This document shows, piece after piece, positions 1-31,002 of a stretch of DNA of 64,000 nt. The stretch is from contig JABSSW010000058.1 of NCBI GenBank assembly GCA_018902385.1, forward strand, positions 124,001 to 188,000, written 5' to 3'. The DNA is from Physcia stellaris. Lineage: Eukaryota > Ascomycota > Lecanoromycetes > Caliciales > Physciaceae. The translations under genes and the position numbers were made by a program. The notes below the pieces were generated by a model. That model was given only the letters and a program-made list of their open reading frames with translations. It ran no database searches and was not told the origin of the DNA. Position 1 is the stretch's first letter, and each line of letters opens with the position of its first letter.

Positions 1-440
1 ACAATAATTTCGTAAATCAAATCGTTTTCAAAAAACTTTTGAATGTTGAATTCGCTTTTACGAATATTCGTGTATTGAATGTTTCAGCAAAAAAATTTGT
101 TGTCGATTTTCAATTCGATTCGAATCGTCATCAAAAAATTTTCAATTAATTTTTCAACTTTTTTTTTCTCGTTTAGATGAAATTGCAATAACTCATCAAA
201 AAATAAAACATTCATGTTTTTTATGACGAGCAATTTCTTTTTACGTCGACGTTTTATTTTTTCAATTTCGAATTTAATCATTTCAACGTCTTTTTCGACG
301 TTACGACGAATTTTTTTCACAATTTGTTTATGTCGAACGCGAATTGCAACATTCGTTTTTTTTTGCAAATCGACGACGTAAATTGTTTTGACTTTTTTAT
401 TTTTTTTGTTATTGATCGCAATTTCGTGAAAATCAACATT
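1..440. repeat. AT-rich hypermutated repeat, left part
   Basis: Very AT-rich sequence with not a single GG or CC dinucleotide, while CA and CG remain common. By eye count on the plus strand there are roughly 27 CA, 29 CG, 8 CT and 0 CC. The same composition resumes at 2427 on the other side of the LTR element, so this is one older sequence split by a later insertion. The minus strand stays open as a lysine-rich reading frame, which is what such composition produces. I cannot name the original element; a DNA transposon or another repeat is possible. Confidence 0.75.
436..440. repeat. Target site duplication, left copy
   Basis: ACATT directly precedes the 5' LTR and is repeated exactly after the 3' LTR at 2427-2431. 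Five bases is the usual length for LTR retrotransposon integration. Confidence 0.85.
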
Positions 441-628
441 TGTTACGAGCATGCCTGGAGATTTCGGTTGGAGTCTTATTTTATCAGCGGGAGTTCATAT
501 GAGGCTAGCGCGATCAGGGCTTGACGTTCACAATCTACTTCTGGCATTCGATTTTCATGTACATATTTGCTTCTTAGATCAAATATTCTCGTTATGTTAT
601 TTATTGAGTTTTAGGCATGCGCCTTACA
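441..628 (+). repeat. 5' LTR
   Basis: 188 bp, TG..CA ends. It differs from the 3' LTR at 14 positions, all C/T or G/A transitions. Read on the C-bearing strand, five lie in CpC and nine in CpT; none lies in CpA or CpG. Confidence 0.87.
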
Positions 629-856
629 TTATATTTGATTTTCATCGTGACGAGCGATGTAAAATTCACACTCGCAAGCGGTTTGCGAGTAGAAAGAAAC
701 ACGGTCGATCAATTCGTGACGGTCGCACATCTTCAGCACGAAACCTCCTTATTAATTCGCAGTGACGGTGGTTCACTGTCTCTTGCACAGCAGATTTCTC
801 GTTTTGGGTTTTGCGAGACTAATTGACATCCGGTCAAACGCTCTGCCGAAACAGGT

Positions 857-1057
857 TGCTCGTCGGGGTACGCGAGTAAGCAAAATAAGATCGCCAGTCT
901 CGTAGGGGTACGCGAGATAAAAGAAAATCGCCAGTTGCTCGTAGGGGGAGCGAGTAGAAACAATGCTTTCATCGCTCGTAGGGGTACGCGAGTGTTTAAA
1001 AGAAAATCGTCAGATCACTTGTAGAGATACGCAAGTCAAAAGAAAATCGTCAGTCTG
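857..1057. repeat. Imperfect tandem array of short hairpins
   Basis: About five units of roughly 40 bp. Each has a CTCG..CGAG type inverted core around a GTAGGGGTACG-like loop, followed by an A-rich spacer ending in ATCGCCAGT or ATCGTCAGT. It lies inside the LTR element. A separate perfect inverted repeat (ACTCGCAA / TTGCGAGT) sits at about 670-692. Function unknown; a packaging or RNA-structure role would be speculation. Confidence 0.6.
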
Positions 1058-1104
1058 AAGTTCTCTCTTTGGAGGCGATGATTGCACTTCACTTTCACTA
1101 TGCG

Positions 1105-1630
1105 CATCGTGGGTCAGCGAGAATGGTCGTGAGTCTGCGAGAATGATCGTGGGTCAACGATAATGACAGTCAATAGTTGATCTTTCTGTTCTGAAAGTCA
1201 GTCAATCAGTGAGTTTGCTACAACGGCAGTCAATTGTCGATTTTCTTTTTCGAGCTTTCGGCATTTAGTCAATAGACGATCTTCGTGCTTTCTCGAGTCA
1301 GTCGGCTCACTCATCAAATGGTTTTTACAATACTCATTTTCTTGAAGCGTTGGGACATCGCTTGTTAAAGAGGAAAATAGAAGTCACACACAACAATCTC
1401 ACACCAAATCATCAAATCAACAAACAATCATCCAAAACTTCAAACAAAATTTTCGGTTTCTAGGTCTGTTACATTTTCAGCATGGCCGAGAAATTCACGC
1501 TTCGCTTCGTTTCGTCAGTGCCTCAGCGAGCCTGCTCGTTTCGTCGGCATTCAGTGAGTTCGCTACAACGATTAGTGAGTTTGCTTCAATGAAATTCTTA
1601 GTGAGTCGGCTAGAACGATCTCAATATGCA
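1105..1630. repeat. Further short tandem repeats in the LTR element interior
   Basis: At about 1105-1165 three units of about 22 bp share ATCGTGGGTC..CGAGAATG. Around 1200-1225 and 1552-1615 variants of AGTGAGTTCGCTACAACGA recur about four times. Nothing coding is apparent. Confidence 0.45.
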
Positions 1631-2238
1631 TGCGTTCGATTTTTACATCTCTGCAGTCAACATCAAGAGGTGAATTTATTACATACAGCGATACGGGAGC
1701 AAATGGCATCGAGAGATGAAGAACAACAGTCAATGCGAGTCTATTACGCAGTCAATTCAGCTCGTTTTTTTCGCAGCCGTTTGTTCGGTCGTCAATGCAG
1801 CCAATATTTTGTCATTCGATTTTCTATTCTATAGTTTGCAGCCAATCAGGACGCGTCGATTAATAAGAACTCGAAAAGCTCAAATTCGAGGAGTTTGAAA
1901 CAGCACACGTTCGCGAAATCGATATCGTCATGCTGCTTTTGCTTTTATTCTGCTCGAGAAATCGGTCGTTTCATCATATTAATCTGCAGGTATTTCAGCG
2001 GTCAAGATTTTCAACAAGGTTTTCATTCTCGTGATCTTATATATTCAGTTTTCGCCTTTTTTCTTCTGCTTTCGCATTTATTTCTTCACATTTGTCACAT
2101 CTGCTTTTGGGCTTTCTGTTTCAACCATGGCCAGGCTGGTATCTGGATTTCAGTCAATGGATTTCTTCGCAGCGCCGACCGAGTAGAAAAAGTAGATTAT
2201 TCGCTTCGAAACGAAGCTTGGAGGAGACGAGGGGATAG

Positions 2239-2426
2239 TGTTACGAGCATGTCTGAAGATCTCGATTGGAGTCTTATTTTATCAGCGGGAGTCCATATGG
2301 GGCTAGCGCGATCAGGGCTTGACGTTCACAATTTATTTCTGGCATTCGACTTTCATGTACATATTTGTTTTTTAGATCAAATATTCTCGTTATGCTATCT
2401 ATTGAGTTCTAGGCATGCGCCTTACA
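2239..2426 (+). repeat. 3' LTR
   Basis: 188 bp, the same length and termini as 441-628, about 92.6% identical by direct alignment (174 of 188). Followed immediately by the target duplication ACATT at 2427-2431. Confidence 0.87.
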
Positions 2427-3050
2427 ACATTGACAACGACGTCGAAAATATTGTCTGAAAATCGATCAAAATAAAAAAATAAAAAAAATTCTCGATATCG
2501 ATGTTGAAAAATTCGAAACGACAAAAATTCAAAATTGAAAAATATAAAAATTTTTTCTCGAAAACGAAATGTAATCAATTGACGAAATGTAAAAATATTT
2601 TTTTTTTCGAAATCACGTCGCTTTTTTTCAAGATTATCAATTTTTTGTTGACGACGTGCAATCTCGTCACGTTCAATTTTTTTTTTTGTTTTTCGTATAG
2701 CAAACGCGTCAGAATTCTCATTTTTTTTTCGCGATTTAAATCATTCACAATATCACGAGCACGATTTCGTGTTGTTCGTTTTTCACGAATTTGTTTATCA
2801 CGAACTTTTTTCGTTTTGATTGCGTTTGCAATAATTTTCTGAAAAACTTTGTTTGCGTCGATGAATGATTTGAATTTTGCAAACTTTTTGATGACGATTT
2901 TGAGAAACATTACGAAACGACGAGACGACGAAACATCAAGAATTGATTAAACGAATTGTACAAAAATGTGATTTGAAACATGCAATCAAAAATTTCAAAT
3001 AATCAAAAATTGAATTTTTCACAGATCACATCGAAATTTGATGCGAGAAA
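2427..3050. repeat. AT-rich hypermutated repeat, right part
   Basis: Continuation of the sequence at 1-440, again with no GG or CC until about 3051, where the composition changes sharply to normal. On the minus strand 2575-2910 reads as a lysine/arginine-rich open frame, which I take as a decayed relic of a repeat-encoded protein and do not call a gene. Confidence 0.7.
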
Positions 3051-3629
3051 AGGAATTGCGGATCCGCATTTAAGCGAGCTTTCCGATGAGATATGCATAC
3101 GCTAATAATGCAGAGCGGCAGCGTCTATGATACTCTAATAAAATAGGGCTCTTGCCGCTAGGGCTGTCTAGCTAACTCGACTCTCGATCTGAGAGAGCTT
3201 CACATCTCACCATCGAACCTCAACTCTATCCAAGCTTCCCTTTGGATGATGTATCAGTCACGCATTAAGTCGAAACCTCAGTTGTCGTTGTGAATCAATG
3301 CTTCGGTTTCTCGAAGGGTCGCCAAGGGCTGAGGCTCCAAGGGCTCCACGCTTGACATGATTTCCTTCAAAATCATGAGCCATTTGACGCAGGATAGGCG
3401 CATCGAATGTAAGTGCAATCTATCATGTATGCTCAATGTGTTGTCATCTATCGGCAATGGTGTCATTTTTTCGTGTAGAATGGAGTCCAGCATTCACATA
3501 CACGACTGCACTCTCCCCAGGTAAAACCTCTTTGAAGGTAATAGTCTCCTTCTTCGTTACTAGCACTTGATATTCTCCCAGGAACATGCTCAAGACCACA
3601 AACCATCTTCCCGGTTTATTATTTTAAGA
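3051..3629. other. Intergenic, no supported gene
   Basis: Normal composition. Short open frames on both strands show no recognisable protein. It separates the repeat island from the first genes. Confidence 0.5.
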
Positions 3630-3842
3630 ATGCCCCGTCTCCTTTCGCGACTCCGACCTTCAAGACCTTGCTCACCTTCCTCCGGAATGTGCACTCGCAT
3701 TCTCGTGCGATACGAGTGCGGTCATATCTATGAGGTTGGCGGAACATCCTGCAAGCATAACGGGACCCACTGTCGAAATCCTGAAGAGGTGTTGGAGCAA
3801 AACTGGGATAATTGCTCTCACTGCGTTGTCGCCAAATTGTAG
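3630..3842 (+). CDS. Small Cys/His-rich hypothetical protein
   Basis: An intronless 70-residue frame starting at the ATG at 3630. The first 20 residues are basic and Ser/Pro-rich. The remainder contains a Tyr-x-Cys-Gly-His motif followed by spaced cysteines and a terminal CxxC-like pair, an arrangement that suggests zinc binding. Small proteins with a YxCGH core are widespread in ascomycete genomes, but I know no function. It faces the BRE2 gene, whose stop lies 230 bp downstream on the other strand. It could be a chance frame; the clustered Cys/His residues are the main argument for it. A longer upstream extension lacks an ATG. Confidence 0.45.
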   Translation: MPRLLSRLRPSRPCSPSSGMCTRILVRYECGHIYEVGGTSCKHNGTHCRNPEEVLEQNWDNCSHCVVAKL

Positions 3843-4071
3843 ATCAATATCTGCGTTAAGATCCTATCTTTCGACCAACACACGCTGGATAGAGTAGGTG
3901 CCGAGAAGGGGGAAATAAATCATAAGCTGAGTTGTGGAGCATGGGTTCCAAGATCCATTTATATCGAGCAGAATTGTCCACGTTTAGAATCATACTATCC
4001 CTTTCACTACCTAGATGTGGTGATAGCATTACATTTGGGTATCTTCGAAATTGCAGAGCAGTCACCAGTGA

Positions 4072-5930
4072 TCATTCCTCTTCCTGCACAACCTCCTTGA
4101 TCTGTCCCTCTCTTCTAATGCCAACCATACCACCGCTGTTCACGACCTCCTGCACCACAGCCCGCACCTCTTCCGCCTCCGGATCGACAGGTCCCATGAG
4201 CACAGCAGAGGTCTTGTCGCTAAGACTAGCCTTCTTCATTGGTTCCGAGCCCTCCTTCTCGCCGTTTTCCGTATCCTGAGCCCAGAAGTCAACTTCGTCT
4301 ATAATATCATAGACGATGTCTTCGGCGATCTGTTCGTTGAACCGATCAGAAAGCGGACGGACGTGGGATCTGTGGCCTGAAATAGGCTGCGCAGGCTCAG
4401 CTGGGTGACCACCACCAATCATATCAATGTCCCCATCTTGCTTGTCCGCCATGCTACTGGCCAAGTCTGCCGGGGGGTACCAAAAATCTGGACCGAAATT
4501 GACTTCAGCTGCTCCACCCCGAAAGACGCTGATAGCAGGGAAATAGCCAAGCATAGCGTCGTCAAGTCCATCCCGAGAGCCCAATTGATTCAATGGTTTC
4601 GAGGCGGGAGGTAGGAATGCCAGAAGCTGCGAGAATGGCTCACCGACATACTCGCCATTTTTGTAGACTTTGATGCTAGAAAAAGGAAGGGTACGGAGAG
4701 CGGGCGAGGAGTGGTTCGGAGAAGGGGGAGCCGCGCCTGGATTTACAGCGCTACCACCTGAGGTAGAAGTAAGAACAGGCACAGGGTTCATCAGATCCTC
4801 AAGTTCCTTAGTGGGGTGGTATTCGAAGTGCTCAAAGTAGATGTGGTTCTTGAATCGGATTGGTACGCGATCTCGAACTATGTTCGGCGCATCCGCGGGA
4901 CTAGGTGTATCATTATCATCTGAAATATCGACAGCTTTGTTGTAGGTCCCTTCAACGATCTTGCGATGGAAGGACAGCGAGGGCAAAGTGATCTCCATAC
5001 CAATTACGTCTCCCTCGCAAAAATCCGAGTTTGACGGCATGAAGTCCTTGGGGCGAGACATGTGCACTTTCTGACCAGCAACATCCCGTAAGCCATAGCT
5101 GTAGGCGTCGAAGCCGACCGGGGTGTCCAGACTCGCTTCACGACGCGCCCATCCTAGTCGGACGTGGCCTCTAGTTTCCCGGCTTACGCCTTCCGTCCCT
5201 GGATGATTGAGGTTTCTAACACCGCTTAAGATTTTGCATTCCCAATACCAGCGACCTTCCCTTACCCCCACATTCGCACGTGCCGTCCGGAAACCCTTCT
5301 CGGTCGTGATACTCCTTCCGCACGAATCGAAGAGGATATGCGACGAGGCGTCTTCGAAACTGAAGCGAGGTCCGTAAGGTTCAGTGTCGGACTGCCTGTG
5401 ATATTGATAGTTTGTGAACTCGGGGTCGCAGATACAGTGGATGTAACGGTAGCCTTTGCGATTAAAAACGCTGGGTCAAGTCAGACTTCCTCTAGACCAA
5501 AATATGTGCTTGAGGGACATACTTACTGTTCCGTACATTCGTGAAATTCGCGCCCAGCTTTGGTCATTACTGGCGTGAAAACAGGAGGTCCAGGCGGATC
5601 GAAGTCGGTTCTGTGTGGAGCTGGAAGCTTGTATCGGATGGGTGAAAGTGCCATAGGCACATCGATTTTCTTTTTGGACTTCTTGCCATGACTTGCAACA
5701 TCTGGTGTTCCACTACGAGCGCTGTCCACGCCCTTAGCTTCACGCTTCTTTAAAGATTCCTTCTTCTCTCGTTGCTCCCGTGCTGGCTGTTTTCTAGCAC
5801 GAGCAGCAGCAAAATCTGGGTTGAGTGGTGATGAGACTGCCGGGGCATGTTGCTCATCTTCAATGTTCATTGGCCGCTTTTGTGGAAGGGTAGTAGGAGT
5901 TGAGCTGCGTGGACGAGGTATTTCCGCCAT
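4072..5930 (-). CDS. BRE2: COMPASS (Set1) complex subunit Bre2/Ash2, SPRY domain
   Basis: Two exons on the minus strand, 5930-5527 and 5470-4072, with a 56-bp intron (donor GTAAGT, acceptor CCCAG). The join gives 600 residues in frame. The N-terminal 130 residues are basic, Ser/Pro-rich and probably disordered, ending in the conserved stretch PPGPPVFTPVM. From about residue 150 comes the SPRY domain, with motifs such as GRWYWECKI, HVRLGWARRE, GFDAYSYG and later FGPDFWYPP. In yeast and humans Bre2/Ash2L binds the catalytic subunit of COMPASS in the nucleus and supports H3K4 methylation. An insertion of about 50 Ser/Pro/Gly residues interrupts the SPRY fold near residue 315, as in other fungal orthologues. 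The acidic tail ends in EEE. The start was chosen as the first ATG of the open frame. Confidence 0.92.
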
Positions 5931-8345
5931 ATCTCCCCAGAGTGAGTGAGATGGTCTAATGGAATTATTCAGAGTGCATTTCTAGATCCGGGCATTATTG
6001 TTTGACCGGAACAGCAGCTCTATCTTACCCAGCAACCAAATACAATCACAACTGGTTCACAGGTATGAAGTAGCGTTTCGGAAATAAAATCCCACTCTCC
6101 GGAGAGTTTTTAAGTTTTCTGGCAGTTTATTTACTGTGCAAACTTGCAAACTCGCGTAAGGCTAAACGCGCGACAATGAGGGGGCCTTGGCAAACTAGTA
6201 CGGATACGACACTTGGCTCTACTTAGGTCAAATAGCTTGCTGCAACCACAACACCAGGACCCAGGCAAATTTCGCCATCGGTCATCAAAAATGTATCATA
6301 ACCACAAGTCGACAGGAGAGGTGATTTATAACCAAAAGCCAGACTTGAAACCATATGTCAAATTAAAACCTTACTGAAAAATGCATTCCAATACTGCAGG
6401 AATGGGTAGTAGCCGGGTGTGATAAATATGGGTTTTCTATTTGTTCCTCAATACTCTAGTCATAGCTGTTCCGTTAGAAAGGGGAGGGTTGGGAGGGGCC
6501 GGACATTGAGACTGAAGTGGCGGTCATAATATCACGAAGTACACAGTATCCTCCATGTGTCAAGGCATGGATTTGACATGAAAAATTTACACTGACCTTG
6601 TCTCTCTTTGGTTACCGAGCTAGATCGACAAAATACAAAGGTCTGGAGCCTCTCAAATGTGAAGCGTCTGCGGTCATTCTGTGGTCTTGATTATGGACGT
6701 GAATGATTGAATCCGATGAGTCTTCCCGTGATAGTCTCCTCACTGACTGCAGGTGGACTTCCCTTTCCTGTGCGTTGCACATGATCTTGTCCTTATGCTG
6801 AATATCAGAGACGTCGTGCTCAGAATTTTGTGATGAGCTGAATCCCTGAATATCCCCAAACTCGAGAAGCTTTTAAAGCTCATCGAGATTTAATGAGCTC
6901 TCGACCTTGGGAAAGTATCAGCGAGAACTTTGATCTTGTCAAGATATGAAACGCCAAAATGCTGCACTGACTCGGACTGTAATTCACGCATGATGACTCT
7001 TTAGCAGGTTGAACTACTCGTGAAAACCTCACGTTTAACCCACAATTACTACTTGAACCCTTCCATGATCAAACGCCCAGCCTTTTCTAATCTACGCTGA
7101 GAAAACCAAGAACACCTAATCATAGATTGCAGCGAAAGCACCTAATACCTCTTTATACCCTTCCTGATGATCGACTTCGATTAGGCTAAAAAGGCGAAAG
7201 AAACTGGATCATTTCACCAAGCTTTAGATTTCACCCTTCAAGTTCAATCGACTTCGTTATGTGACACAAGCTAAAACTTTGCTACAGATTGCAGGCCAGT
7301 TGATCCTGTTGCCAATGCTACAACCATCAGGTCGTATCCCACGAAGAGCTCATGACCTGCCCAAATCGGAACTGCAAATATAAGTCTTGGGATAATTGGA
7401 TGTATTACTTGAGAAAAGGTCAGAGCTGATCCCGGTCTAGTCGTCCTGGTTGACAATCTAGTCGTCCTGGTTGACAATGAACAACGTCGATAAGAAAGAT
7501 GTAGATAGACTAAATGACGATTGATTGCTTACCTAACTGGGCCAAAGCAAACAAATCGCTTTTCTCAGGCTTGCGCACCGGGTCATACTCGCATGGTAAA
7601 TAAGTTTTGATTTGCTGTATGCCTGATACCTAATGGGAGAAGGGTGCTTTTCTCCATACCGAATGTATGGACGGTTGATGGCTTGCTAATTGTTTCTTCC
7701 GTGAGCATGTTGTGGAAGCAACTCGGTATTGAATTACCCTTGTACTAGATCCATAAATAGTTTCTACTCTTGTACTTTGTTGCAACCTGGTCGATACTTT
7801 CACGGAATGTTGCGATTGACTTCATTCGTCGTGGCGTTTAGCAAGACTCCTGAATGATTGATAATGTATCATCGATCTTCAGTTCTCTAGGGTCGTTGCT
7901 CTGCAGACAGAAACTCCTGAAGATGAAGTGAAAACATCAGAAACAACCGTTCTCAATCCCAAACACATGCCTGTAGCTTGTCAATATACGAGTAATGAAT
8001 CACCTCGATCGTGAAGAGTCTGGTTGTGAGACCATCGTGAATAGAAAGATTTAGAATGATAAGAATTGTCGAATTTGAAAAGTAAATTTAGAACAGGTAG
8101 AGTGGAAAATTAGACAGCGACCAGCAGAGCGAATGTTCAACACTGGATTCTGCTGGCACTCGTTGCCTTTTTAAGATGTGGCCAGTCAATTTCCTAGGGC
8201 GCCCTAGCGCCGGCGAATCGGGCGCCGAAGCCGCCGAAACTTACTCGGCGAATTGAGATTCTCAACGATAGCTAAGTTCGCAATCTACTTCTTTCACTGC
8301 TGATTCCTACGCATTTTCCTTCAAGAATACGCAATTCTCTACAAG
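5931..8345. other. Long gene-free interval between divergent BRE2 and PDB1
   Basis: 2.4 kb with no credible reading frame on either strand and ordinary composition. It must hold the promoters of both flanking genes. I find no tRNA-like B box, no LTR copy and no protein relic. The only local structure is a perfect 21-bp tandem duplication at 7436-7477. Confidence 0.5.
7436..7477. repeat. Perfect 21-bp tandem duplication
   Basis: Two identical adjacent copies (7436-7456 and 7457-7477) beginning TCTAGTCGTCC and ending GGTTGACAA. Non-coding context. A recent slippage or repair product is the simplest reading. Confidence 0.85.
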
Positions 8346-9749
8346 ATGGTCGCTTCTAGGATTGTGCGGCCAGCTGCACGCTTTGTATCCTGTACTCGAT
8401 CGCCCTTAAACTTTCCCTTTCGACCCGCAGCCACATTACCGACCTCATTGAACCGACGAACATATGCCACACCCAGCGGAGTGAAGGAAATGGCAGTCAG
8501 AGATGCGCTGAATGAAGCCTTGGCCGAGGAGCTTGAATCAAACAGCAAAGTTTTCGTGCTGGGAGAAGAAGTAGCACAATATAATGGAGCGTTAGTACTA
8601 CCGCTCGAAGAGAGCTTTCTATGTTCAGGAGCCTCGCTATCGCGCCAGCATTTCATTCTCCAAAAACACCGCTACATCAGGAGAACACTACGGATGTCGT
8701 GTCACCAGATGAGCTTTTGATTACCTATTAGTGCAAAGACTAAAGATCATTTCTGCAGCTACAAGGTCACGAAAGGCCTACTGGATCGATTTGGTGACAA
8801 AAGGGTTATAGATAGCCCAATAACAGAGTCTGGGTTCGCGGGATTAACGGTCGGCGCTGCGCTGGCAGGCCTACATCCTGTGGTATGCTTGAACTATATC
8901 TTTTGGAGAGATAAGGCTCATCACGGCTTTAGTGTGAATTCATGACATTCAATTTTGCTATGCAAGCAATCGATCAAATCATCAATTCAGCTGCAAAAAC
9001 ACATTACATGTCCGGAGGCATCCAGCCCTGCAACATTACTTTTCGTGGTCCGAACGGTTTTGCTGCCGGTGTCGCAGCACAACATTCACAAGACTATTCC
9101 AGTTGGTACGGGAGCATACCGGGGCTCAAAGTCGTTGCGCCATGGAGCTCTGAGGACGCGAAAGGATTACTCAAGGCTGCAATAAGAGACCCAAATCCCG
9201 TTGTCGTACTAGAGAATGAGTAAGTGGATGGCAGGTTGGTCTAGCACAAGGCAAGGACATGACTGATTTGCGAGCAGGCTACTCTATGGAACAGCTTTTC
9301 CCATGTCCGAGGCTGCACAAAAGGATGACTTTGTTCTACCGTTTGGCAAAGCCAAAATCGAGCGGCCCGGCAAGGATCTGACAATCATTACGTTGTCCCG
9401 CTGTGTGGGTCAGTCCCTCGCTGCGGCCGAGAAGCTGAAGAAAGACTATGGTGTGGAGGCAGAAGTGATCAATCTTCGATCGGTCAAGCCTATGGATGTC
9501 GAGGCTATCGTCAATTCGGTCAAGAAGACTGGTCACCTTATGGCGGTCGAGAGCGGATTTCCCAGCTTTGGAGTTGGCGCTGAGATTCTAGCTCTGACGA
9601 TGGAATACGCATTCGACTACCTCGATGCACCAGCTGTGAGGATTACGGGAGCGGAAGTACCGACGCCTTATGCACAAGGGCTGGAGGACATGAGTTTCCC
9701 GCAGGAGAAGATGATTGCTGATTATGCTGCCAAATTACTAAGGGTCTGA
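8346..9749 (+). CDS. PDB1: Pyruvate dehydrogenase E1 component subunit beta, mitochondrial
   Basis: Four exons: 8346-8590, 8759-8882, 8933-9219 and 9278-9749, giving 375 residues exactly in frame, the usual length of fungal Pdb1. The first 35 residues are Arg/Ser-rich without acids, a typical mitochondrial targeting sequence, and a cleavage-like RRTYAT precedes the mature domain. Conserved E1-beta blocks include [39 protein letters not shown] and [11 protein letters not shown]. With E1-alpha it forms the thiamine-diphosphate-dependent enzyme that decarboxylates pyruvate and passes the acetyl group to E2 in the matrix. Intron 1 uses GTTAGT and is 168 bp, longer than the other two (50 and 58 bp). 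Confidence 0.97.
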
Positions 9750-11224
9750 TATTCGCAGTCTTTTCTACGTCGTTGGCATCGGATGCGATGGCTCCATATG
9801 TTTGTCTAGCGTGGGAGTGTTAGCTGGCGAAAGGCGCTTCGGGGCGGACGTTTTCCATCCTCGGCTCACGGCCGATAAGGTTGTCTGTGCGCTTTGACTC
9901 TTGATAGTCCTGTCAGCATACCTCATAGAATATCAATCGACAGACACTAGTGTTGCGGCGGGGATGGTCGGCGCAGCAGCAGCGGCTTGAGGCTCAACGC
10001 TAGAGGGCATCCCCAAGCCAATCGCACGAATGGAAAGCGGACGCTCGTAGATGCTGTCATGATTTAAATGACTTTAGTCTCAGGAGGATGGGGGCATATA
10101 CCCGTTCGTAGGAAAATGATGGAAAATTGATATTCTTCATTGCCATCGACCCAGTAGCAAAGCGAGGTTGTACGGACTTGGTCGGGGGCACTACCCACCA
10201 ACCTAGCCATCAGCGTCTAACGCAGGTCTGATCACAAAATGTAGTTCACTCGCAATCCTGCCCCGACGGCTTCCATCTTTCACCATTGCTCCTCCTCGAC
10301 CAAAAAGTGCCACACGATACTCACACATGACCCACCCCATCCTGCATGTGAGATCGGCTCATCCCAGGTTGTCCTTCGGCAATCTGAACCCTCTGCATGA
10401 CATGCCACGTTGCTGCCGCCTCAAAGGTTCGGAGGTGTGCACAGCTGCTCCGATCCATGGCCTTGGGAATAAAGAGGGTCTTCGATCCCACCGTTGAACA
10501 GGGCCGTGGACAAGGTCGCAGACAGGCTTACCAGCTCACGCTCCAGCCATGTCCGGCTTACATCTGTCTGGTGCCGCCGACCACCTGTCGTTAAGCCCCG
10601 GAGATATCTGGTCTAGTAGTAGTCCACCTGGAATAATAGCGCTCGAGCATGCCATCATATCCGCCTCCTTCGCGATCCTGCGTATTGGACAAGTCCCAAG
10701 ACCGCGCTTCCAGGGTTCCGAATAAATGGTAAACAGATTACCCTGTTCCATTGGTTTGACCAGCATCGCTCACCCGCGTCTGTCTTCAATGTCGTCTGCT
10801 TTCCTCGCAGCTTGCTATCTTCGCCATCCTTCGGTCGTCATCACTAGTGTCAGATGTCCGTCTCTCTACTCATCTATAATTCTCCGGTGTATGTATAGCG
10901 TAGATTCCCTCACTGTCATTCGTCAGTGCTTCCATCATGGATTGCGCTGCCAATGTCTGGTCCGCCCTGGACCGGGGCGGCCTTTGCTTACATCTCTCGT
11001 CGTGCTGCTGTTCTTTTGTTGGCCCCCCCTTCTGCCTCCTTGCGTATTGGATGAGTATTGATCAAAGTCCCTTATCGTATACTGTGCTAGAGCTCTCTCG
11101 TATCCGTCCGAGTTCATGTCTCGAGCTTCCTACCTAGGGTCTCATTTCCGCTACTTAACGTACCGCTTCCTCAGCGATTTGCAATCTGTAAGCTACTATA
11201 GAGCCCAGGGCAACGGACTCCATC
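9750..11224. other. Gene-free interval upstream of the F-box-like gene
   Basis: About 1.5 kb without a convincing gene. The part from about 10,780 to 11,150 is pyrimidine-rich on the plus strand and has short overlapping frames on both strands with no recognisable motif. A long 5' untranslated region or a regulatory RNA is possible but unproven. Confidence 0.45.
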
Positions 11225-12532
11225 ATGCCCAAAGGAACCAAAAAGGCCCCTCCAATTAAAGCTGTCACTCGGTCAAGCCTAAGATTTCTTACCATACCAT
11301 TGGAGCTCAGGGAACACATCTACACGGATCTCCTGAATTCATCGCCCTCAGCACTCTTCGATTTGCTTCTCACCAATCGACAAATCGCCAATGAAGCCAA
11401 GCCTTTCCTGTACAGGCAGCCCATGATCTTTGACGGTCAGGGAGAGTTCGTTTCATGGCTGAGGAACATCGACCGGGGATGCCTTCGACATGTTGTGGAC
11501 GTGCACTTCAAGCTCCATGACATCGACCCAGCGAAAATTGTTGGCGCTCTTGGAAAACGTTTGCGGCAAGCTTCACCAGACCACGACGATAACCCATACC
11601 AAGAGGCATGCGAGGTAGAAGTCGAACGGCTCGGAAAATACTTTCAGCACCTTCCGAACGTCAGATCTTTCACCATCCTCCCTTACGAAAATGGAGACCC
11701 TCGGCCCTCATACGGTATGTTGGTGTCATTTGCAGAGATGCTCGAGGACCAATTTCCAAACCTGCGATCTCTTACGAATTACGAGGAACTTCTTCCCTTT
11801 ACGTTCCTCGAGAATTACGGGAAACTCCAGCATCTGAGATTCACAGGCGTGTCGACAAGCACACGTGCAGAGGTGTACCGAACATTCCGAAAACTTCCGG
11901 AGCTTACCGCACTCGAGATATGGCGGCCAGACGCCAACATCGAAGACGACCGCTATGAGAAGATGTCCGAAGTCATTGGGGCTGGACGATGCAACGTTGG
12001 GGAGATACTCGGGGCTCTACCGCAGCTCCGCGCATTTTCGTACCGCGAATTCGCACTTAGTGCGAGACCCTCGGCAGCGTTCAATCCGGTCAGGAAGTCG
12101 ATCTTCGAATTACTGGGCGTGTTGGAAAAGCATCCCTCGTTACGGTCACTACAGATTTTGACGAACATCGACTTACTCAGCCGTGTACAGGAGAAGCTGG
12201 AAACAGTCATCTCCTCCTTACGCTCGCTCCGACAGGTTGATAGCTATTACGACGACATGCCGGCGTTTGAAGATCTTCCCCGGACCACTGAAACAGTCAC
12301 CATGCGGTTGGACCCTATGAGTGAGCTGACGCCGACGCTCCTGATGGACCTCCTTTCGGGAGCCAAAGAATCACGTGCCCGCCTGCCTAGGCTGGCCGAA
12401 ATTGCGTTGCACATTGACAGCTTCCCAGATTCTGAGCGTGCGCAAAGAACAGCGAGCTGGGTGCGAGACAAGTTGAGAGAAATGGGGATTCGGTTGAGAC
12501 TGAAGACGTGGAATGGACCAAGTAGATTCTGA
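11225..12532 (+). CDS. F-box-like / leucine-rich hypothetical protein
   Basis: A single-exon frame of 435 residues. After a short basic start, residues 19-55 (RFLTIPLELREHIYTDLL and the following LLLTNRQIANEA) have the form of the fungal F-box or 2EXR-type motif, an LP/IPxELRxxIY helix followed by a helix ending in a conserved LTNRQI. The rest contains repeated leucine-spaced segments (LRSLTNYEELL, LQHLRFTGV, LPELTALEIW, LRSLQILTNI), suggesting a leucine-rich-repeat substrate-binding part. Such proteins may act as adaptors in SCF ubiquitin ligases, but very large lineage-specific families exist in filamentous ascomycetes and the target here is unknown. No signal peptide or membrane helix is present. 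The start follows a clear upstream break in the frame. Confidence 0.75.
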   Translation: MPKGTKKAPPIKAVTRSSLRFLTIPLELREHIYTDLLNSSPSALFDLLLTNRQIANEAKPFLYRQPMIFDGQGEFVSWLRNIDRGCLRHVVDVHFKLHDIDPAKIVGALGKRLRQASPDHDDNPYQEACEVEVERLGKYFQHLPNVRSFTILPYENGDPRPSYGMLVSFAEMLEDQFPNLRSLTNYEELLPFTFLENYGKLQHLRFTGVSTSTRAEVYRTFRKLPELTALEIWRPDANIEDDRYEKMSEVIGAGRCNVGEILGALPQLRAFSYREFALSARPSAAFNPVRKSIFELLGVLEKHPSLRSLQILTNIDLLSRVQEKLETVISSLRSLRQVDSYYDDMPAFEDLPRTTETVTMRLDPMSELTPTLLMDLLSGAKESRARLPRLAEIALHIDSFPDSERAQRTASWVRDKLREMGIRLRLKTWNGPSRF

Positions 12533-13330
12533 TGACCTTTTTGAGGATTCTAGGTTTCCTTTCTCATACATAATTCATAATCGACTTATTTGGGCATTGT
12601 TACATCGGCCTTTGGTAATACGAGACAGACGTCATTAGCATTAGCGGTACTTGGATATAGAAATGTACCAATACCCCGTGGAGCATGCAGGGTGAGCATT
12701 TGGTAGGCGTTGTCTGTACAGCCCCTGAGGCGGAGCGGATAGGCCAACAGCACGGTGTCGAAAGCGAGGTCGCAGGTCTGGTGCTATGTTTGGAGCACTC
12801 CGTTCTAGACGGCGATGGATTATTGTCAAAGGCTCATTGACCATTTAGATGATATCTACAAATTTCAATCATCATCTCACTTACGCCACTGAGTGGCCAT
12901 TCTCGTAATATCCAACTTGACCCCAGAGCGTTTTCCGGGTAGTGCCTAAAGTCGGGTAACCTTCACTTTTTCAGAAGCAAGTAATGCAGGATCGTCAAAG
13001 GTAAGACGGAATAATATGGAATAGATTTACCTGACAGGTTGATATACGAGGAATTGCTCATGAGTTTTCCGCACTCGTTAAGCCATAAATAGAGCTAGTG
13101 CTCTTCCGTCGCCTACAAGTGTAGGGCTGAAAGTGACGTAGCTCTGGGGGGCCCTGAATCCTGCACTCTACGCTTACGATTTCCTCAATTCAGGACGTCA
13201 CATTATTGTTCTGACGGGGTAGATCTCGCACAGCAACTCCAGTCGCTACTTCCTACTGAATCCGAATCATCCACCTTGGACTTTCTGAAAGCTTTTTCAA
13301 TCATGCCCACCAACTGCGCCTTCGGATGAT
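12533..13330. other. Intergenic, probable phosphatase promoter and 5' UTR
   Basis: 800 bp without a supported gene. Short frames on the minus strand show no homology that I recognise. Confidence 0.45.
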
Positions 13331-15822
13331 ATGATTCCTCGAATGTCATGCTACGACCACGAAACCTCTATTCCCACCATGTCTGCTGCTACCACTACCC
13401 ATCTTACTCCCATAGCATCCAAAGCCCGTACACCCCGTACGGCACGAGACAAAGGCGCACCTAGTCCCAACTACTTCAACCCACTTGTATCCCCACAGTC
13501 CGCTCCATCAGATTCGCAGTCGAGCCTCGAGGCTTTCCGGAGGCAATCAGAAACCAATCCTTTCAACCTCAGCCATGGTAGTCTCTCTTTCTTCAGCACA
13601 AATGCATCGGCCGAGTTGAGTCCAACAGGCTTGCGCGGACCAGAAGACAATGTTGTCTCACCCTTCTCCCAACCAAAAGTCATGTCGCCCACAGACAAAG
13701 AAGCGCAGACCGCTGTGCCTATGGAAATTGATAGTTCTTCACCTTCTCAGGCATCGTTACCTCCTCCGTCAAGACCCTTCAATTTTCAGTCGACTGGCAA
13801 CAGCTCACCTTCGTTTTTCGATCTTCCTCGGAAAACATCGCCTTCCTCTCAATCCCCTGCCGATCTGTCAGCACGAAATCAACTTTCCCGCATTGACGAG
13901 CGACGTCCCCGCAACTCTTTACCGCAGAACAGGATAGATCCACCTTTATCCGCCGATCGTGAGCCTGTGCAACGTGCGGAAACGCTGCCGAGTTCGCTAA
14001 GTAAAGAAACCCCAAACTTCGTTTCACCACAAGAGCTCTTGGACATACTCGAATCATACTCACCCGATGAGGTCCTGCTCCTTGACCTTCGGGTCTACCC
14101 GCAATACTCCCAGTCACGCATTGATAGAGCTCTTAATCTATGCATACCTACAACTCTACTCAAACGGCCTGCATTCAATGTACAGAAGCTTGCGGATACA
14201 TTCAATAGGGAAAAGGAGAAGGCCAAATTCGCTCAATGGAAGGAAGCGAAGGTCATCGCTGTGTATGATGCCAACTCTTCTCTTCTCAAGGATGCTACAT
14301 CGAGTGTCAATACCCTGAAGAAGTTCGCGAATGAAGGATGGCGCGGATCCGCGTGTATAGTTCGTGGGGGCTATTCTGGCTTTTCGAAAAAGTTCCCAAA
14401 TTCTATAGATCGGCGACCAGCGAGCGAAATGGAGAGTACTCAGGGGAGGAAACTATCCATTGACCCCACAAAGTCTCTTGGAGCCCCTGTAGCTGGAGGT
14501 TGCTTGATGCCCGCCGAACAAAGCTCGGCGAATCCCTTTTTTGGCACTATCCGGCAAAACATGGATTTAATTGGCGGAGTAGGTCAATTTCCTATTAAGC
14601 TCCCATCATATATAAAAGATTCAAGCTATCTGAAAGATTTGAGTCATGGCAACGAATACAATGCCAATCTTGTGCCTCCATGGCTAAAAAAAGCGTCATC
14701 CCCACGTAATCGCGGCAAAAACGTTGCCGACTACTTCTTAAGCATCGAGAAGGGAGAGCAACGCCGTATGCAGAAAGCTCTGACCGGTACAGTCCATTAT
14801 GGCTCGCCTAACGCAACGTCCCCCAACTCCGTCAGAATCGCTGGAATTGAAAAGGGTAACAAGAATCGCTACAAGGACATGTTGCCCTTCGATCATTCTC
14901 GAGTCCGATTACAGAATGTTCCGGCTGGGGAATGTGATTATATAAATGCTAGCCATATTAAATCGGCTTTCAGCGGCAGGCACTATATTGCAAGCCAAGC
15001 CCCTGTACCTGCTACCATAGAGGTGTGTTCGGATCTTGTGTCTACTAGTGAGGTAATTAGACTAACGACAGGCAGGACTTCTGGCGCGTGGTCTGGGAAC
15101 AAGACGTTCATGTCATTGTCATGCTAACAGCTGAGCACGACGGCGGCCAGCGCAAGAGCCATCCCTACTGGGACGGTCAGTACGGGAACTATTCAGTCAA
15201 AGTCGAAAGCACACGTATTCAAACCTTGGTTCCGATAAAGCTTAACGTTTTCGGCGCTATAGATGAGCCGACTGTAATTATCCGAGAAATTACGGTTATT
15301 GGCCCTGGAAAAGAACGCCGCATCTCTCAGCTTCACTATTCAAGTTGGCCCGATTTCGGCGTTCCAACTGACCCATCCCATCTCCTTAGCCTTGTACGCG
15401 TCAGTCGCCGAGAAGAGCAGAAGTATGCCTCAGCGACGGCACGTAACAAAGAGAGGCCTGTCCTAGTGCACTGCAGCGCCGGTTGCGGGCGAACTGGCAC
15501 TTTTTGCACCGCCGACAGCGTGGTTGCGACGCTTGAAAAACGCCTTGACCAGCGCTGGCCCAAGAATAAGCCTGAGCCGAAGTGGACGGAGGAGGATGGA
15601 AGGGAAGACCTAGTGGCGAGTACCGTAGAGGACTTTCGATTGCAGAGGTTGAGCATGGTGCAGACGCTACGGCAGTTTGTGCTGTGCTACGAGACGGTGC
15701 TGCAGTGGTATGCTGAATGGCTTGAGAAACATCTTCGGGAAGTCGATGTGGTTGCTAAAGAGAGACCTGGGCTGGAGAGGAGACAGAGCAAGAGCAAGAG
15801 CATCAAATCGCCGTCGTATTGA
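13331..15822 (+). CDS. Protein tyrosine phosphatase with N-terminal rhodanese-like domain (Pyp1-type)
   Basis: Two exons, 13331-15022 and 15076-15822, separated by a 53-bp intron, give 812 residues in frame. Residues 1-225 are Ser/Pro-rich and disordered. A rhodanese/CDC25-like domain spans about 229-355 (SPQELLDILESY, LLLDLRVYPQYSQSRI, IVRGGYSGF); the usual catalytic cysteine position in its VYC-type strand holds Asp (VYD, about residue 313), so it is probably a docking domain. The PTP domain starts near residue 510 (NRYKDMLPFDHSRV, DYINASHI, YIASQAP). It carries HYSSWPDFGVP and the active-site loop VHCSAGCGRTG, with the catalytic Cys near residue 697. This arrangement matches fission yeast Pyp1/Pyp2, which inactivate stress MAP kinases. 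Another ATG at 13379 could be used instead of 13331. Confidence 0.92.
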
Positions 15823-16107
15823 TTTAGCTGCATTGTTGGCGGGTGGGCATAGCGTGCAGCGTTCATGAGCTCTGTATCAATAAGGATAGCATGATGGCGT
15901 TGCATAACTGAATAGAAGCATCCGGTTCATCTGAATATACGAAATGATAATCACCATACCAAGATGGCGGACTGAAGAGGATGAAATCGAAGTCGCCAAA
16001 GCGCTATGATGCCCATTGCTGCTCAAGATGTTTTAATGAGTCAGTAACCCACTTGGAGCTTGTATAATACATTCAAGATTGCTCTTCATCTTTTCCTTTA
16101 TTTAAAT

Positions 16108-17407
<1,300 letters not shown>

Positions 17408-18080
17408 GGTGACGGGTTGAAAGGGGTGTGAGGGATAGTGGATGAGGTATTGTGAGCCGAATATTCGAGGGAACAGGAAGGCGTTCGTTGGAAGGCACGT
17501 TGAAATGGTGGTATTGCTATCTTGAAGTTGGGACGGGGACGATAAACAGTGAAGGTGGGAAACACAGCGTTAGACAGCGTAGGGAGCAGTCTCAAGTGTC
17601 GAGCGAAAGGGAGCTAAGGTATCGGTAGGGTACCTTAAGGTATAAGGTATGGTGATATGGTGACGAGAACAGTTTAGCAGAAGCGTCACAGCCAGGGTCT
17701 ACGTAGCCGAGACGTTAGCCGCGGCTGCCGGTAAGATATGATCCCTGTCCAGAGGGTGTGATAAATGTGGTCGGCGACATGTGCCATGGCAGTAAGCACG
17801 CACCAGATGACCTTTCATCATCCATGCCTTACTACCTTTAACCTCTCTTACCCCCTTGACTCTCGTTGATCTCCGCTGTCAAGTCTTCGGTCCCAAGTAT
17901 GGGCGCATCCGCGACGAAGCTATCATCGCCCATCGCAAACTTATCAGCTTGTTTCAGATGATCCTTCCCGGAGACCGCTCCTTCCCAGCCTCAGAGCATT
18001 TACACCATTTGGTCTCAATATCCGTGTCAAAACATCGCTGTCGCATTCTATGCTGACCATTGATTCATCTGCTCTTCAAC
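17408..18080. other. Divergent intergenic region RPT6 / VNX1
   Basis: 670 bp that must hold both promoters. No gene seen. I looked for the yeast Rpn4 box GGTGGCAAA on both strands and did not find it. Confidence 0.45.
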
Positions 18081-21000
18081 ATGGCGCCTAATCAGCACTC
18101 ATTGGGCTCAACACCCTTCAATTCCTCTACAGACACATCGCCTACAGACACTCGAGCTCCTCCACCCCGTTTTGAGTCCATCACCCGAGAAGACGATGAG
18201 GATGCTTCCATAACCACAGGTACGATCCGCAGAAGCCGTCCACCGGCGATATCCACGCAATCGGGCAATCACGGCACGTTCACCTGCTTATCAGTTGTGT
18301 GCGCCGAGGAATGTGACTAATATTCTTCGGTTGACTAGGCTCAGTGGCTTCTTTCAATACCGCAGAGGAGGAACAGGACGATGGACAGCGAACGCCAACT
18401 CAAGAAGGGAGCCGGCAGCCTATGCATAGTAGTAGCTCATCCATACGGAACCAACTACTCTCCCCTGAATCGATAAACCCTTCACATAAACCAAAGAAAC
18501 CTGCAATGACACGAAGAAATTCGTCCAAATACCCAGCGCCTCATAGAGGTCAGGAGTTCTCCGTAGATGATGATCCAAATGAATACGAGTCCGACATTCA
18601 ACAGCATAAAAGGTCGTCCATAGCAAGGACTGCGTCAGGGGTCGGGCAGTCGTTACGAAGACAGCCCTCAACTTTGAGAAGACGACCTACAGCTCCACCG
18701 TCGAGCTTGCCGAGAGTGGCGTCTCAAGGCGAAGATGAGGAGGCGGCAGAACAAGGCCGCACGCCCACACCGGTCACTACGAGCATGGTTCAAGAACCTG
18801 AGGAGACTCAAGAAACCTCTGGCGAGGAAGGCACTGTGCTGGGAGATGCAGATGATGAAGACGACGAAGATGACGGGGAGCTGAGTGACGCCGAGAGCTT
18901 CACGCTCAAAGATCGTCAAAAAGCCATAAACGACACACATCCTTTTGGTATACGGATCTGGAAGCCTGCGCTGTACAAGAAAAACAGATCTGTTGAGAAG
19001 ACCGCCGAAGGCGATATCCACTCGTCACCCGGGGGCAGGGTCTCCAGATGGCTTTGGATCTTCAACCTGTTGTGGACGATCCTGTTCGGCTGGTGGCTCG
19101 CTTTGGCAGCCGGCTTGGGAGCCATTGTTTGCCTTGCTCTTGGTTTTATGCCTGGTACAGTCGAGTATGGCCGAGTCCTCGCCGGGTTAGCTTGGTACCT
19201 TTTCTATCCCTTTGGGCAATTTGTTCGCTTAGAACAAGACGAGGCATACGCCGAGGAAGATGAAGGGGAGGGCCGCAGTATCTCGGAATACGAGCGCTGG
19301 CAGAATGGTGACCTGGAAGATGGGCGCCTCTTTTTCGGCCCACTGACCTCTCGTTCCTTGATTGGTCGTCGAAGATCCAGCATAGAATCCGCAGATGAAA
19401 ATGACAGCCTCCTTGGGCGGACGCGGAGGGGTCACGAAGAAGATGATGAACGGATGAAAACCAAGAGGCGTCTTTTTGGTCGCGGCCAGTGGACCTTGGG
19501 CCGGGTCATATTCTTCGTGTTCTTCTACTTTCTGATTGCCCCTTTGCTTCTGCTTACCTCCCTTGTCTGCTGGTTCATGGTCTTCTGGATACCAATGGGG
19601 AAGGTCACTTTGCTCCTTTTCTACCATCTACGCCGACATCCTTTGGCCTTATCCTTCAATGCTGATAGCACCTACTCTCGTGGCGATTCTTCGCCCTCGT
19701 CGTCAATCTTGCTTTGCACTTACAGAGCCGTTGGCCTCAAATACTGGAAGTACACTATTGACGGCACCAATATCTTCCTCATTAATCTTATCGGCGTAGT
19801 ACTATTTGTGATCTTTGATTACTGGGTACTAGATGTTGTGCTTGGTCTCAAGGGATGGATTGTCAGTCCGGGTTTTGTCTTTGCTCTGGCGCTTTTCTCA
19901 ATCATTCCACTCGCATACTTCATTGGCCAAGCTGTTGCCTCCATATCTGCGCAATCCTCAATGGGCGTTGGTGCAGCCATCAATGCATTCTTTTCAACCG
20001 TGGTTGAGGTATTTTTATATTGCGTGGCGCTGAATCAAGGCAAGGGCCAACTTGTCGAAGGAAGTATCATTGGTAGCATCTTTGCTGGTATACTTTTCCT
20101 GCCAGGTCTGTCCATGTGCTTTGGAGCCCTCAAACGAAAGACCCAAAGGTTCAATGTCAAATCTGCTGGTGTCACTTCGACCATGTTGTTGTTCGCTATC
20201 ATTGCAGCATTCTCACCTACTCTATTTTATCAGATCTATGGCAGCGTAAGTCTTATTTTCCTCGTTCTCAGATCCTGCTAACTTGTTCCTAGCATGAACT
20301 TAAATGCCATATGTGCAAGGTTCAGGATGAGAGTGACGGAGATTGTACTCGCTGCTACTTCTCGCAGGTTCCAGCTATCCATGATGCCTTTTTCCTCGAA
20401 GCCGTTCGCCCATACACTTGGCTTGCTGCTGTTCTGCTGTTCCTGAGCTACATGGTCGGCTTGTGGTTTACCTTAAGGACCCACGCGGCTGTCATATGGA
20501 ACATTGAGATTGACGAGAAAAAGCTCTGCATTCTCATGGTCCGAATGGTAGCATATCCCACCAGCCCATACAGCTGCAGCCGGCTCCTCCTCCAAAACAA
20601 ACTAGCGGTAGTAGTAGTAAAGACATTGCCGGACGCGGAAACCCAATCCGAGAATCTCCTCTTTACAAGCGAATCCTGCAACAATCTTTGAAAGATGCCG
20701 GACTTGGGGACCACAGTGTGGACGAATCACGTCAGGCTTCTGTATCCAGCACCGCCCCAAAGAGCAGTTCTCCCAAGGCGCCACATCTTGTGCCACCTAA
20801 GAGTAGCGGAGGTGATAGCAACACGGCGGCAGATACAGCGAATCAGAATAGCATGAACATACCTTCGCTTTCCGAGCACGAGAATGCCGAGCTTGTTCGT
20901 CATGTCGTCGAGATATCTGCTCAAGCAGCAGCTTTAGCTGCCCGTGATGCCACCCAAACCAGCCGCAAAGTGTCTACTATTCATTCGGCACACCATACCC

Positions 21001-29915: not shown

Positions 29916-30095
29916 TGTGGCGGTGAGGTTGGAGGAGCGGTGGTGGAATAGGTAGGGAAGAACTTTGAGGGAGGGGAGGCCTTGAGGCATATGAAGGTCT
30001 TGGCGTGAACGGTAGCGCTGAGGTGGAGATCGAATAGAGAGTTCCTGTCATAACTATCACTTTCATTGACCATTCGTAAACTCGGTCTGGCAACA

Positions 30096-30894: not shown

Positions 30895-31002
30895 CCGGTT
30901 TTCGATTCCAGCAAAGCTCAATACGGATTGATCGTCTACCATGGCCTTTTGGAACCAGCGGCTGGGTATTACAGATCCGCTAATGAAGAAACCACACCCA
31001 AT

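Follow-up and report, generated by a model that had tools for sequence, protein, structure and literature searches.

Repeated DNA in the genome of the lichen-forming ascomycete Physcia stellaris is heavily altered by C-to-T changes at cytosines that precede a pyrimidine (CpY); the changes lie on both strands, are not limited to one repeat family (a DNA transposon is also affected), and are confined to repeats where this was tested. Many fungi disable jumping genes by C-to-T mutation of repeats, and the best-studied among them mostly mutate C before A. Section 9 of a 2025 kingdom-wide survey describes CpA preference as common to RIP-like defences (PMC12543289), and the repeats of P. stellaris obey the opposite rule. 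Leaving the enzyme aside, we consider it highly likely that the responsible process is repeat-induced point mutation (RIP), or something very similar, with CpC as its first target and CpT as its second.

The window that we analysed (64,000 nucleotides of contig JABSSW010000058.1, positions 124,001 to 188,000) begins with a short LTR element lying within an older AT-rich repeat (Table 1). The initial annotation had proposed a CpY-directed, repeat-associated C-to-T process on the basis of the two LTRs and of the dinucleotide content of the flanks, with hand counts for the left one, and a recount reproduced its figures exactly. The gap-free LTR alignment shows 14 differences in 188 sites; each is a transition, and on the strand that carries the C not one lies at CpA or CpG. 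The plus strand of the left flank carries 27 CA, 29 CG and 8 CT, and that of the right flank 37 CA, 42 CG and 10 CT; letter-shuffled versions of the flanks contain a mean of 40.5 CC and GG, with at least 21 in each of 2000 shuffles, against none observed. Both flanks belong to a single older repeat, of which contig C29 carries two further, uninterrupted copies (identity 93% and 95% for the left part, 94% and 87% for the right). As homology extends beyond the point at which CC and GG return, the outermost ~55 bp of this repeat were spared. Within the element, the inner part would be too short to hold a pol polyprotein, and the purine-rich stretch is, judging from its sequence, probably the polypurine tract. 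Compared with the copy on contig C42, the inner part shows C-to-T differences at 102 CpC, 32 CpT, 14 CpA and 6 CpG sites. From position 3051 to the end of the window, observed/expected (o/e) ratios are 0.95 for CC, 1.08 for CT, 1.08 for CA and 0.89 for CG.

Table 1 Features of the LTR element, the surrounding repeat and the adjoining DNA, in window coordinates.
Feature	Position	Strand	Remarks
Older AT-rich repeat, left part	1..440		0 CC, 0 GG; CG o/e 3.74; interrupted by the LTR element
Target-site duplication, ACATT, 5 bp	436..440 (left), 2427..2431 (right)		Bounds the element
5' LTR, TGTTAC...CTTACA	441..628	+	At least 41 genome matches
Short LTR element, inner part	629..2238	+	Partly mutated; CC o/e 0.56
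Purine-rich stretch, putative polypurine tract	2220..2238	+	5' of the 3' LTR; read from sequence
3' LTR	2239..2426	+	14 transitions relative to the 5' LTR: 5 CpC, 9 CpT
Older AT-rich repeat, right part	2427..3050		0 CC, 0 GG; CG o/e 3.31
Outer end of older repeat	3051..3107		CC/GG kept; homology to C29 copies extends to 3107-3113
Ordinary DNA, internal contrast	3114..64000		Without CpY depletion

Multi-copy comparisons bore out the proposed process, giving CpC and CpT rather than CpA as the mutated contexts. From 55 LTR matches in the retrieved genomic DNA, 46 could be used as 23 pairs (3876 sites, ignoring two columns at each LTR end); the nine left aside comprised lone LTRs on C13, C27, C26 and C21, a pair on C5 in which one member is truncated, two incomplete matches on C43 and an additional fragment on C126. 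These pairs differ by 333 transitions and 19 transversions, and 322 of the transitions fall at CpC or CpT, leaving 11 at CpA or CpG. The corresponding rates were 131/268 at CpC, 191/560 at CpT, 6/446 at CpA and 5/362 at CpG (odds ratio 46). The 5' base had a lesser effect than the 3' base, with rates ranging from 0.44 to 0.60 at CpC and from 0.17 to 0.44 at CpT. Transitions were split between the C side (181) and the G side (152), and every one of the 22 pairs having more than one change was mutated on both strands. CpC already came first in lightly mutated pairs (19 CpC and 2 CpT on C4; 7 CpC on C31). Little-mutated copies are also present in the genome: the LTRs on C42 differ at one site and those on C25 at two.

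A CpY bias was also seen in the element interior and in a second type of repeat. Across 28 interior copies (excluding matches shorter than 150 columns or overlapping a better match), C-to-T changes affected 51.5% of CpC (1950/3784), 27.7% of CpT (858/3098) and about 5% each of CpA (173/3315) and CpG (180/3374), with opposite-direction changes numbering 88, 48, 78 and 123, respectively; interior copies share inherited changes, a problem from which the LTR pairs are free. In a DDE_1 DNA transposon compared between C12 and C43, 80 of 94 transitions were at CpY (48 CT, 32 CC), the others being 10 CG and 4 CA, alongside 6 transversions. Two further DDE_1 pairs showed no CpY bias: L084-L085, in which both copies are saturated (22 CT, 21 CG, 16 CA, 38 transversions), and L083-L086, which are 69% alike (6 CT, 9 CG, 8 CA, 39 transversions). 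Because interior losses at CpA and CpG exceed the reverse changes, and 14 of the 94 C12-C43 transitions fall at CpG or CpA, a weak CpR component is possible alongside CpY.

Dinucleotide composition agrees with these context preferences. In 174 tiles of 250 bp with GC below 0.28, o/e was 0-0.02 for CC, 0.05-0.19 for CT, 1.31-1.42 for CA and 3.4-4.3 for CG; 475 tiles of the same size with GC of at least 0.44 had normal dinucleotide composition. Old repeats would have been mutated again and again until CpC, and later CpT, was exhausted, ending as AT-rich DNA in which surviving C stands almost only 5' of A or G, hence the apparent three- to fourfold enrichment of CpG. Standard RIP indices do not register this state: TpA/ApT is 0.30-0.49 in AT-rich DNA versus 0.69 in the remainder of the window, the substrate index (CpA+TpG)/(ApC+GpT) is 1.14-1.39 versus 1.27, and the TpA-based composite RIP index of mutated repeats is negative (-0.75 to -0.99).

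Where it was tested, the depletion was confined to repeated DNA, and gene DNA had normal composition. Of ten samples of 3 kb each, spaced along C1, C2 and C4, one was AT-rich, and ~2.8 of its 3.0 kb has other copies. The element on C4 has a CC ratio of 0.47 and flanks at 0.82 and 0.95, while the flanks of the C8 element are also partly depleted (0.66 and 0.75). Loss of CC and GG from single-copy DNA, which would have counted against the initial annotation, was sought beyond position 3050 of the window, in the 12 tiles of 300 bp with the lowest GC, and was not found: CC was at 0.55-1.34 of expectation and never absent, in a comparison whose GC matching is imperfect (tile GC 0.387-0.437) since no single-copy DNA equalling the repeats in AT content was found.

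Stop codons within transposon domains (695 TGA, 6 TAG and 137 TAA) provide a further view of the mutated contexts. Simulated mutation at CpY creates TGA stops only and simulated mutation at CpA creates no TGA, and the observed pattern agrees with the CpY rule in three transposon families. The TAA stops are no direct product of CpY change, except via TAG. At equal per-site rates over three reading frames, simulated CpY mutation, with TGA as its sole product, gives about 3.6-fold fewer stops than CpA RIP, and the rule thus alters the capacity of the defence.

As for the agent, the initial annotation had suggested a distinct mutator, perhaps a different RID/DIM-2-type methyltransferase or a deaminase. 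Homologues of RID and DIM-2, members of the known RIP enzyme families, are present; a search for an APOBEC-type deaminase gave no hit, and this, together with the mutation of both strands, speaks against the deaminase option. Two RID-type genes (L031 and L033) encode a DNA_methylase domain with PPCQ, EET/EQT and GNAVPP motifs, and the product of the DIM-2 gene (L032) matches a chain of PDB 9bap over residues 220-905 (E 2e-181). In a methyltransferase tree of 228 of 239 proteins, the others being too short or lacking the motif used for cutting, L031 belongs to a long-branched lineage related to Eurotiomycete RID/DmtA enzymes and L033 to a Lecanoromycete lineage. One may envisage that repeats are recognised via homology, probably before meiosis by analogy with Neurospora, and that a RID-family cytosine methyltransferase, a reasonably likely initiator, begins the change. 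Whether one RID-type enzyme of the L031 or L033 lineage acquired its own rule, a 3' pyrimidine, in Physcia and its kin, creating a system of repeat mutation that complements canonical RIP, is a matter on which we are evenly divided. Were this so, CpA and CpG would stay intact, stops would be nearly all TGA, and standard RIP indices would be blind to the system.

The CpY-directed process might instead depend on DIM-2-type heterochromatin methylation, with CpY methylated and methyl-C deaminated slowly or by the methyltransferase itself, perhaps also vegetatively; this variant is rather unlikely. The presence of L032 is in keeping with it, as is a table in a 2026 review that assigns DIM-2 all CpN contexts with CpT preferred (PMC13297926), and the Zymoseptoria Dim2 is described as promoting C-to-T change in mitosis (PMC8016269). 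According to the same Zymoseptoria study, however, Dim2 is active at CpA, methylation is highest in the CG context and CT is nearly devoid of 5mC, indicating that the DIM-2 family is not generally directed at CpY. Passive decay of 5mC should moreover reach CpG, yet CpG was spared in the LTR pairs.

Editing of repeats or cDNA by a cytidine deaminase outside the methyltransferases, whether APOBEC/AID-like or new, is improbable. The general deaminase family PF00383, which includes ordinary metabolic enzymes, has 11 unsorted matches in the genome; the APOBEC_N profile had no match, although its sensitivity is unproven given that 14 control genomes also had none above the cut-off. APOBEC enzymes read the 5' neighbour, whereas the deciding base here is the 3' neighbour, and the both-strand changes in 22 of 22 LTR pairs and the mutated DNA transposon speak against cDNA editing, which we reject.

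Modified cytosines can be misread in Nanopore sequencing. The assembly published for P. stellaris is described as built from Nanopore and Illumina data (PMC7513301), but a sequencing or assembly artefact, like a neutral AT-rich composition bias, is very hard to reconcile with a bias that is repeat-confined where tested, hierarchical in its contexts and concordant with the stops of three transposon families. Least credible is ordinary CpA RIP that has run out of CpA and left CpT and CpC seemingly dominant, a state to which we attribute the CpT-dominant, CpA-depleted alignments reported for Colletotrichum truncatum (PMC6180176): the five CpT families in that report have substrate indices of 0.08-0.12, whereas CpA in P. 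stellaris is intact, TpA/ApT is lowered and lightly mutated pairs are CpC first, and we reject it. We likewise reject chance, as well as CpG deamination in view of the CpG rate in the LTR pairs.

The CpY-directed process shares much with RIP in Neurospora and other Pezizomycotina, including C-to-T change on both strands of repeats, an AT-rich end state and genes for RID and DIM-2; it differs in that those systems target CpA and raise TpA, whereas here 6 of 446 CpA sites changed in the LTR pairs and TpA/ApT is lowered. Hypermutation of the CpG type (Microbotryum, at TpCpG; rusts; in part Tuber) is also repeat-associated C-to-T change, but CpG was spared here (5 of 362 sites) and is in excess in AT-rich tiles; three basidiomycetes are listed with a Masc2-like enzyme and without RID (PMC4352252). 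In Magnaporthe, Botrytis, Sclerotinia and C. truncatum, CpT is among the mutated contexts and, for the first three, RID is present according to Table 2 of a 2015 comparison (PMC4352252). CpT is accompanied by CpA in the same genome in these fungi (PMC4352252, PMC6180176), whereas in P. stellaris CpC comes first and CpA is spared; neither text uses the term CpC. The open-licence literature surveyed, a scope that takes in few subscription papers, reports CpA, CpT or CpG bias and no CpC-first pattern with CpA spared. What determines the dinucleotide target of RIP, an old question, thereby becomes testable. Among lichen fungi, RIP has been reported in Endocarpon pusillum and Cladonia rangiformis, and in Cladonia metacorallifera and Gyalolechia flavorubescens in a 2021 survey; a paper on Umbilicaria transposons does not mention it. 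C. rangiformis has RID and DIM-2 homologues, and the passages on its RIP give no context. The Endocarpon work and the 2021 survey, so far as their scoring is described, used TpA-based indices, by which the repeats of P. stellaris are negative; since these repeats score as RIP-free by TpA/ApT and CpA indices, index-based surveys may miss lineages of this kind.

The mutational signature itself is very clear, and it is read most cleanly from LTR pairs, because both LTRs of one copy are identical at the start. We compared 23 pairs, comprising 46 of the 55 LTR matches in the DNA examined, and found 333 transitions versus 19 transversions over 3876 aligned sites. With contexts named by the base 3′ of the mutated C, changes occurred at 131 of 268 CpC sites (rate 0.49) and 191 of 560 CpT sites (0.34), versus 6 of 446 CpA (0.013) and 5 of 362 CpG sites (0.014); with sites treated as independent, this bias corresponds to a Fisher odds ratio of 46 (p = 6e-95). 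Both strands carried changes in each of the 22 pairs that had at least two. The 5′ neighbour of the mutated C had a lesser influence: rates were 0.44–0.60 at CpC, and at CpT they ranged from 0.17 (preceding C) to 0.44 (preceding A). The +2 base was without influence at CpC (0.46–0.50) and had some at CpT (0.23–0.45). Individual pairs were CpC-heavy (19 CpC and 2 CpT on contig C4; 7 CpC on C31) or CpT-heavy (16 CpT and no CpC on C22; 20 CpT and 1 CpC on C37), and CC is nearly gone from the C22 and C37 element interiors (observed/expected, o/e, 0.04–0.05). From these two kinds of pair we infer an order of events in which CpC seems to have been mutated before CpT.

The interiors of 28 copies in the DNA examined were compared with the copy on C42, which has a single difference between its LTRs. 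C-to-T changes relative to this reference, which are not independent events because copies share ancestry, affected 1950 of 3784 CpC, 858 of 3098 CpT, 173 of 3315 CpA and 180 of 3374 CpG sites; reverse-direction changes numbered 88, 48, 78 and 123, respectively, and transversions 991. As CpA and CpG losses both outnumber the reverse changes, a weak effect at these contexts is possible. Tabulated by 3′ neighbour, LTR pairs and interior copies alike have CpC and CpT, not CpA, as the dominant contexts, as the initial annotation had proposed.

Within the window, the older repeat is uninterrupted at the insertion point in two other copies on C29, judging from sequence matches (93% and 95% identity to the window in the left part, 94% and 87% in the right). 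These copies, together with the counts reported earlier for window 1–3050, all of which were reproduced on recounting, point to an old saturated repeat with a younger, partly mutated element inside. Tandem-like repeats suggest that the element is non-coding and non-autonomous. From about position 3051 onward the window is ordinary DNA; at the end of the saturated repeat the process seems to halt before the homology does.

Coordinates of the features discussed (window, C58:124001-188000; L078, a DNA stretch on contig C2)
Feature	Position	Remarks
Short LTR element	window 441-2426	TSD ACATT; sits within older AT-rich repeat
Short tandem-like repeats inside the element	window 858-1165	37-40 nt and 20 nt
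Final ~55 bp of saturated repeat	window 3051-3107 (G000:C58:127051-127107)	CC/GG retained; homology to other copies persists
Repeat on C2	L078 2065-2833 (G000:C2:1052065-1052833)	~770 bp; CpC-depleted

Pooled 250-bp tiles, drawn mostly from repeat-rich loci so that their proportions are unlike the genome's, split into two classes by GC. Below GC 0.28 (n = 174), o/e was 0–0.02 for CC, 0.05–0.19 for CT, 1.31–1.42 for CA and 3.4–4.3 for CG; from GC 0.44 up (n = 475), all four were near 1. One of ten spaced 3-kb samples (C1, C2, C4) was AT-rich (CC 0.0, CT 0.07, CG 3.89) and had other genomic copies for about 2.8 of its 3.0 kb. The window's 12 lowest-GC 300-bp tiles outside 1–3050 (GC 0.387–0.437) had CC values of 0.55–1.34, with 0.98 at the lowest GC and 0.61 at the next lowest, and among the tiles and samples examined no single-copy DNA matched the repeats in AT-richness. 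In the C4 element CC is depleted to 0.47, against 0.82 and 0.95 in its flanks, and the left flank of the C38 element is untouched (1.0); the C8 element (0.59) has partly depleted flanks (0.66, 0.75), and most other elements adjoin saturated repeat on at least one side. Separately, the matches listed for the C2 repeat (40 scored out of 801 candidates) include at least 28 other near-full-length copies at 89–96% identity, along with a few that are partial or less similar. The C2 repeat is itself depleted of CpC, yet its copies are more alike than those of adjoining DNA; perhaps it is an LTR that spread late, or one whose targets were already gone.

Other families were also examined. Between the C12 and C43 copies of a DDE_1 DNA transposon domain there are 48 CpT, 32 CpC, 10 CpG and 4 CpA changes and 6 transversions. 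Two further DDE_1 pairs were without CpY bias: L084–L085 (22 CT, 21 CG, 16 CA, 38 transversions), as expected since both lack any CC and the targets are gone, and L083–L086, only 69% alike (6 CT, 9 CG, 8 CA, 39 transversions). In-frame stops, counted over matches some of which are pieces of a single copy, were 250 TGA, 3 TAG and 33 TAA in RVT_1 (at least 150 matches; 150 of 527 candidates scored), 401, 3 and 101 in RVT_2 (at least 137 matches; 150 of 165 scored) and 44, 0 and 3 in DDE_1 (10 matches). When three methyltransferase reading frames from the P. stellaris genome were mutated in silico, CpY mutation yielded 3470 TGA and zero other stops, and CpA mutation 7431 TAG, 4995 TAA and zero TGA; the TGA excess with near-absent TAG is thus an alignment-free readout of CpC change (TGG to TGA). 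The 137 TAA stops in the three families are partly unexplained, TAG-to-TAA conversion via CpT change and older decay being possible sources. Stop-free matches (10 of 150 RVT_1 and 4 of 137 RVT_2 among those scored, 1 of 10 DDE_1) indicate that some elements are recent or escaped.

Standard indices do not register this signature. In the flanks TpA/ApT was 0.39 and 0.30 and the composite index −0.75 and −0.99; the random AT-rich sample gave 0.49 and −0.91, and the remainder of the window 0.69 and −0.58. Flanks and sample fail all three thresholds stated in a 2021 survey (product >1.15, substrate ≤0.75, composite >0; PMC7882544).

A genome search with PF00145 gave four matches at three loci, and the RID and DIM-2 homologues that the initial annotation had suggested looking for are present. 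For deaminases, the genome gave no APOBEC_N match and 11 matches to PF00383. L032, with DUF7893, BAH (a match under the curated cut-off) and methylase domains, matches PDB 9bap, chain “DNA (cytosine-5-)-methyltransferase”, at E 2e-181; we take this entry to be Neurospora DIM-2, and by sequence L032 is a DIM-2 gene. L031 and L033 are, by predicted product, RID-type. Two TGA within the L031 profile match are accounted for by two short introns called by eye, and we read it as a putatively intact gene; in L033 the C-terminal motifs lie in a second open stretch, and the protein is 99% identical to P. stellaris protein P0121. In a quick FastTree phylogeny (228 rows, long outgroup branch), L031 belonged to an 81-row group (support 99) that includes Eurotiomycete RID/DmtA proteins and, inside it, to a long-stemmed clade of 28 rows (support 100) whose sole named member is Heterodermia. 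L033 grouped with proteins of Heterodermia, Dirinaria and several genera of what we take to be Teloschistaceae and, more widely, Pseudocyphellaria and Usnea. A third RID-type group in this tree, P0058 (Psora testacea) and P0117 (Lecanora helva), lies apart from both Physcia genes, so that at least three RID lineages appear to exist among lichens. Motif VI was EET or EQT wherever the pattern matched (ENT once), so the EET of L031 is nothing special.

The process is most likely of RIP type. That a RID-family enzyme is the mutator is somewhat probable, since all CpA- or CpT-signature genomes in the relevant part of Amselem 2015 carry a RID/Masc1 gene (PMC4352252) and the signature in Neurospora crosses is described as gone without Rid1 and retained without Dim2 (PMC12543289, section 9). 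DIM-2, which a 2026 review lists as CpT-preferring (PMC13297926), is a less likely second candidate. For P. stellaris, the available text of the genome paper (46.57 Mb, 184 scaffolds, N50 594.86 kb; cultures from ascospores; PMC7513301) lacks the words RIP and repeat-induced; the assembly used here has 43,974,083 bases in 147 contigs. Lichen RIP is on record, in the portions available, for Endocarpon via the TpA index and Cladonia rangiformis via GC. Amselem 2015 reports signatures of CpA, CpT and CpG type and nowhere in its text uses the word CpC, and Badet and Croll 2025 conclude that CpA preference is shared, with CpC and CpT absent from sections 9 and 10 (PMC12543289). As far as the RIPCAL description extends, it defines CpC-to-TpC as a class, with CpA dominant and CpC among the depleted dinucleotides in S. 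nodorum and CpT reported in Tad1; in its pertinent section, van Wyk 2021 has CpT-to-TpT dominant in LARD retrotransposon alignments of RIP-capable fungi (PMC7882544). What appears new in P. stellaris is the target rule, CpC or CpT, inside a known type of process.
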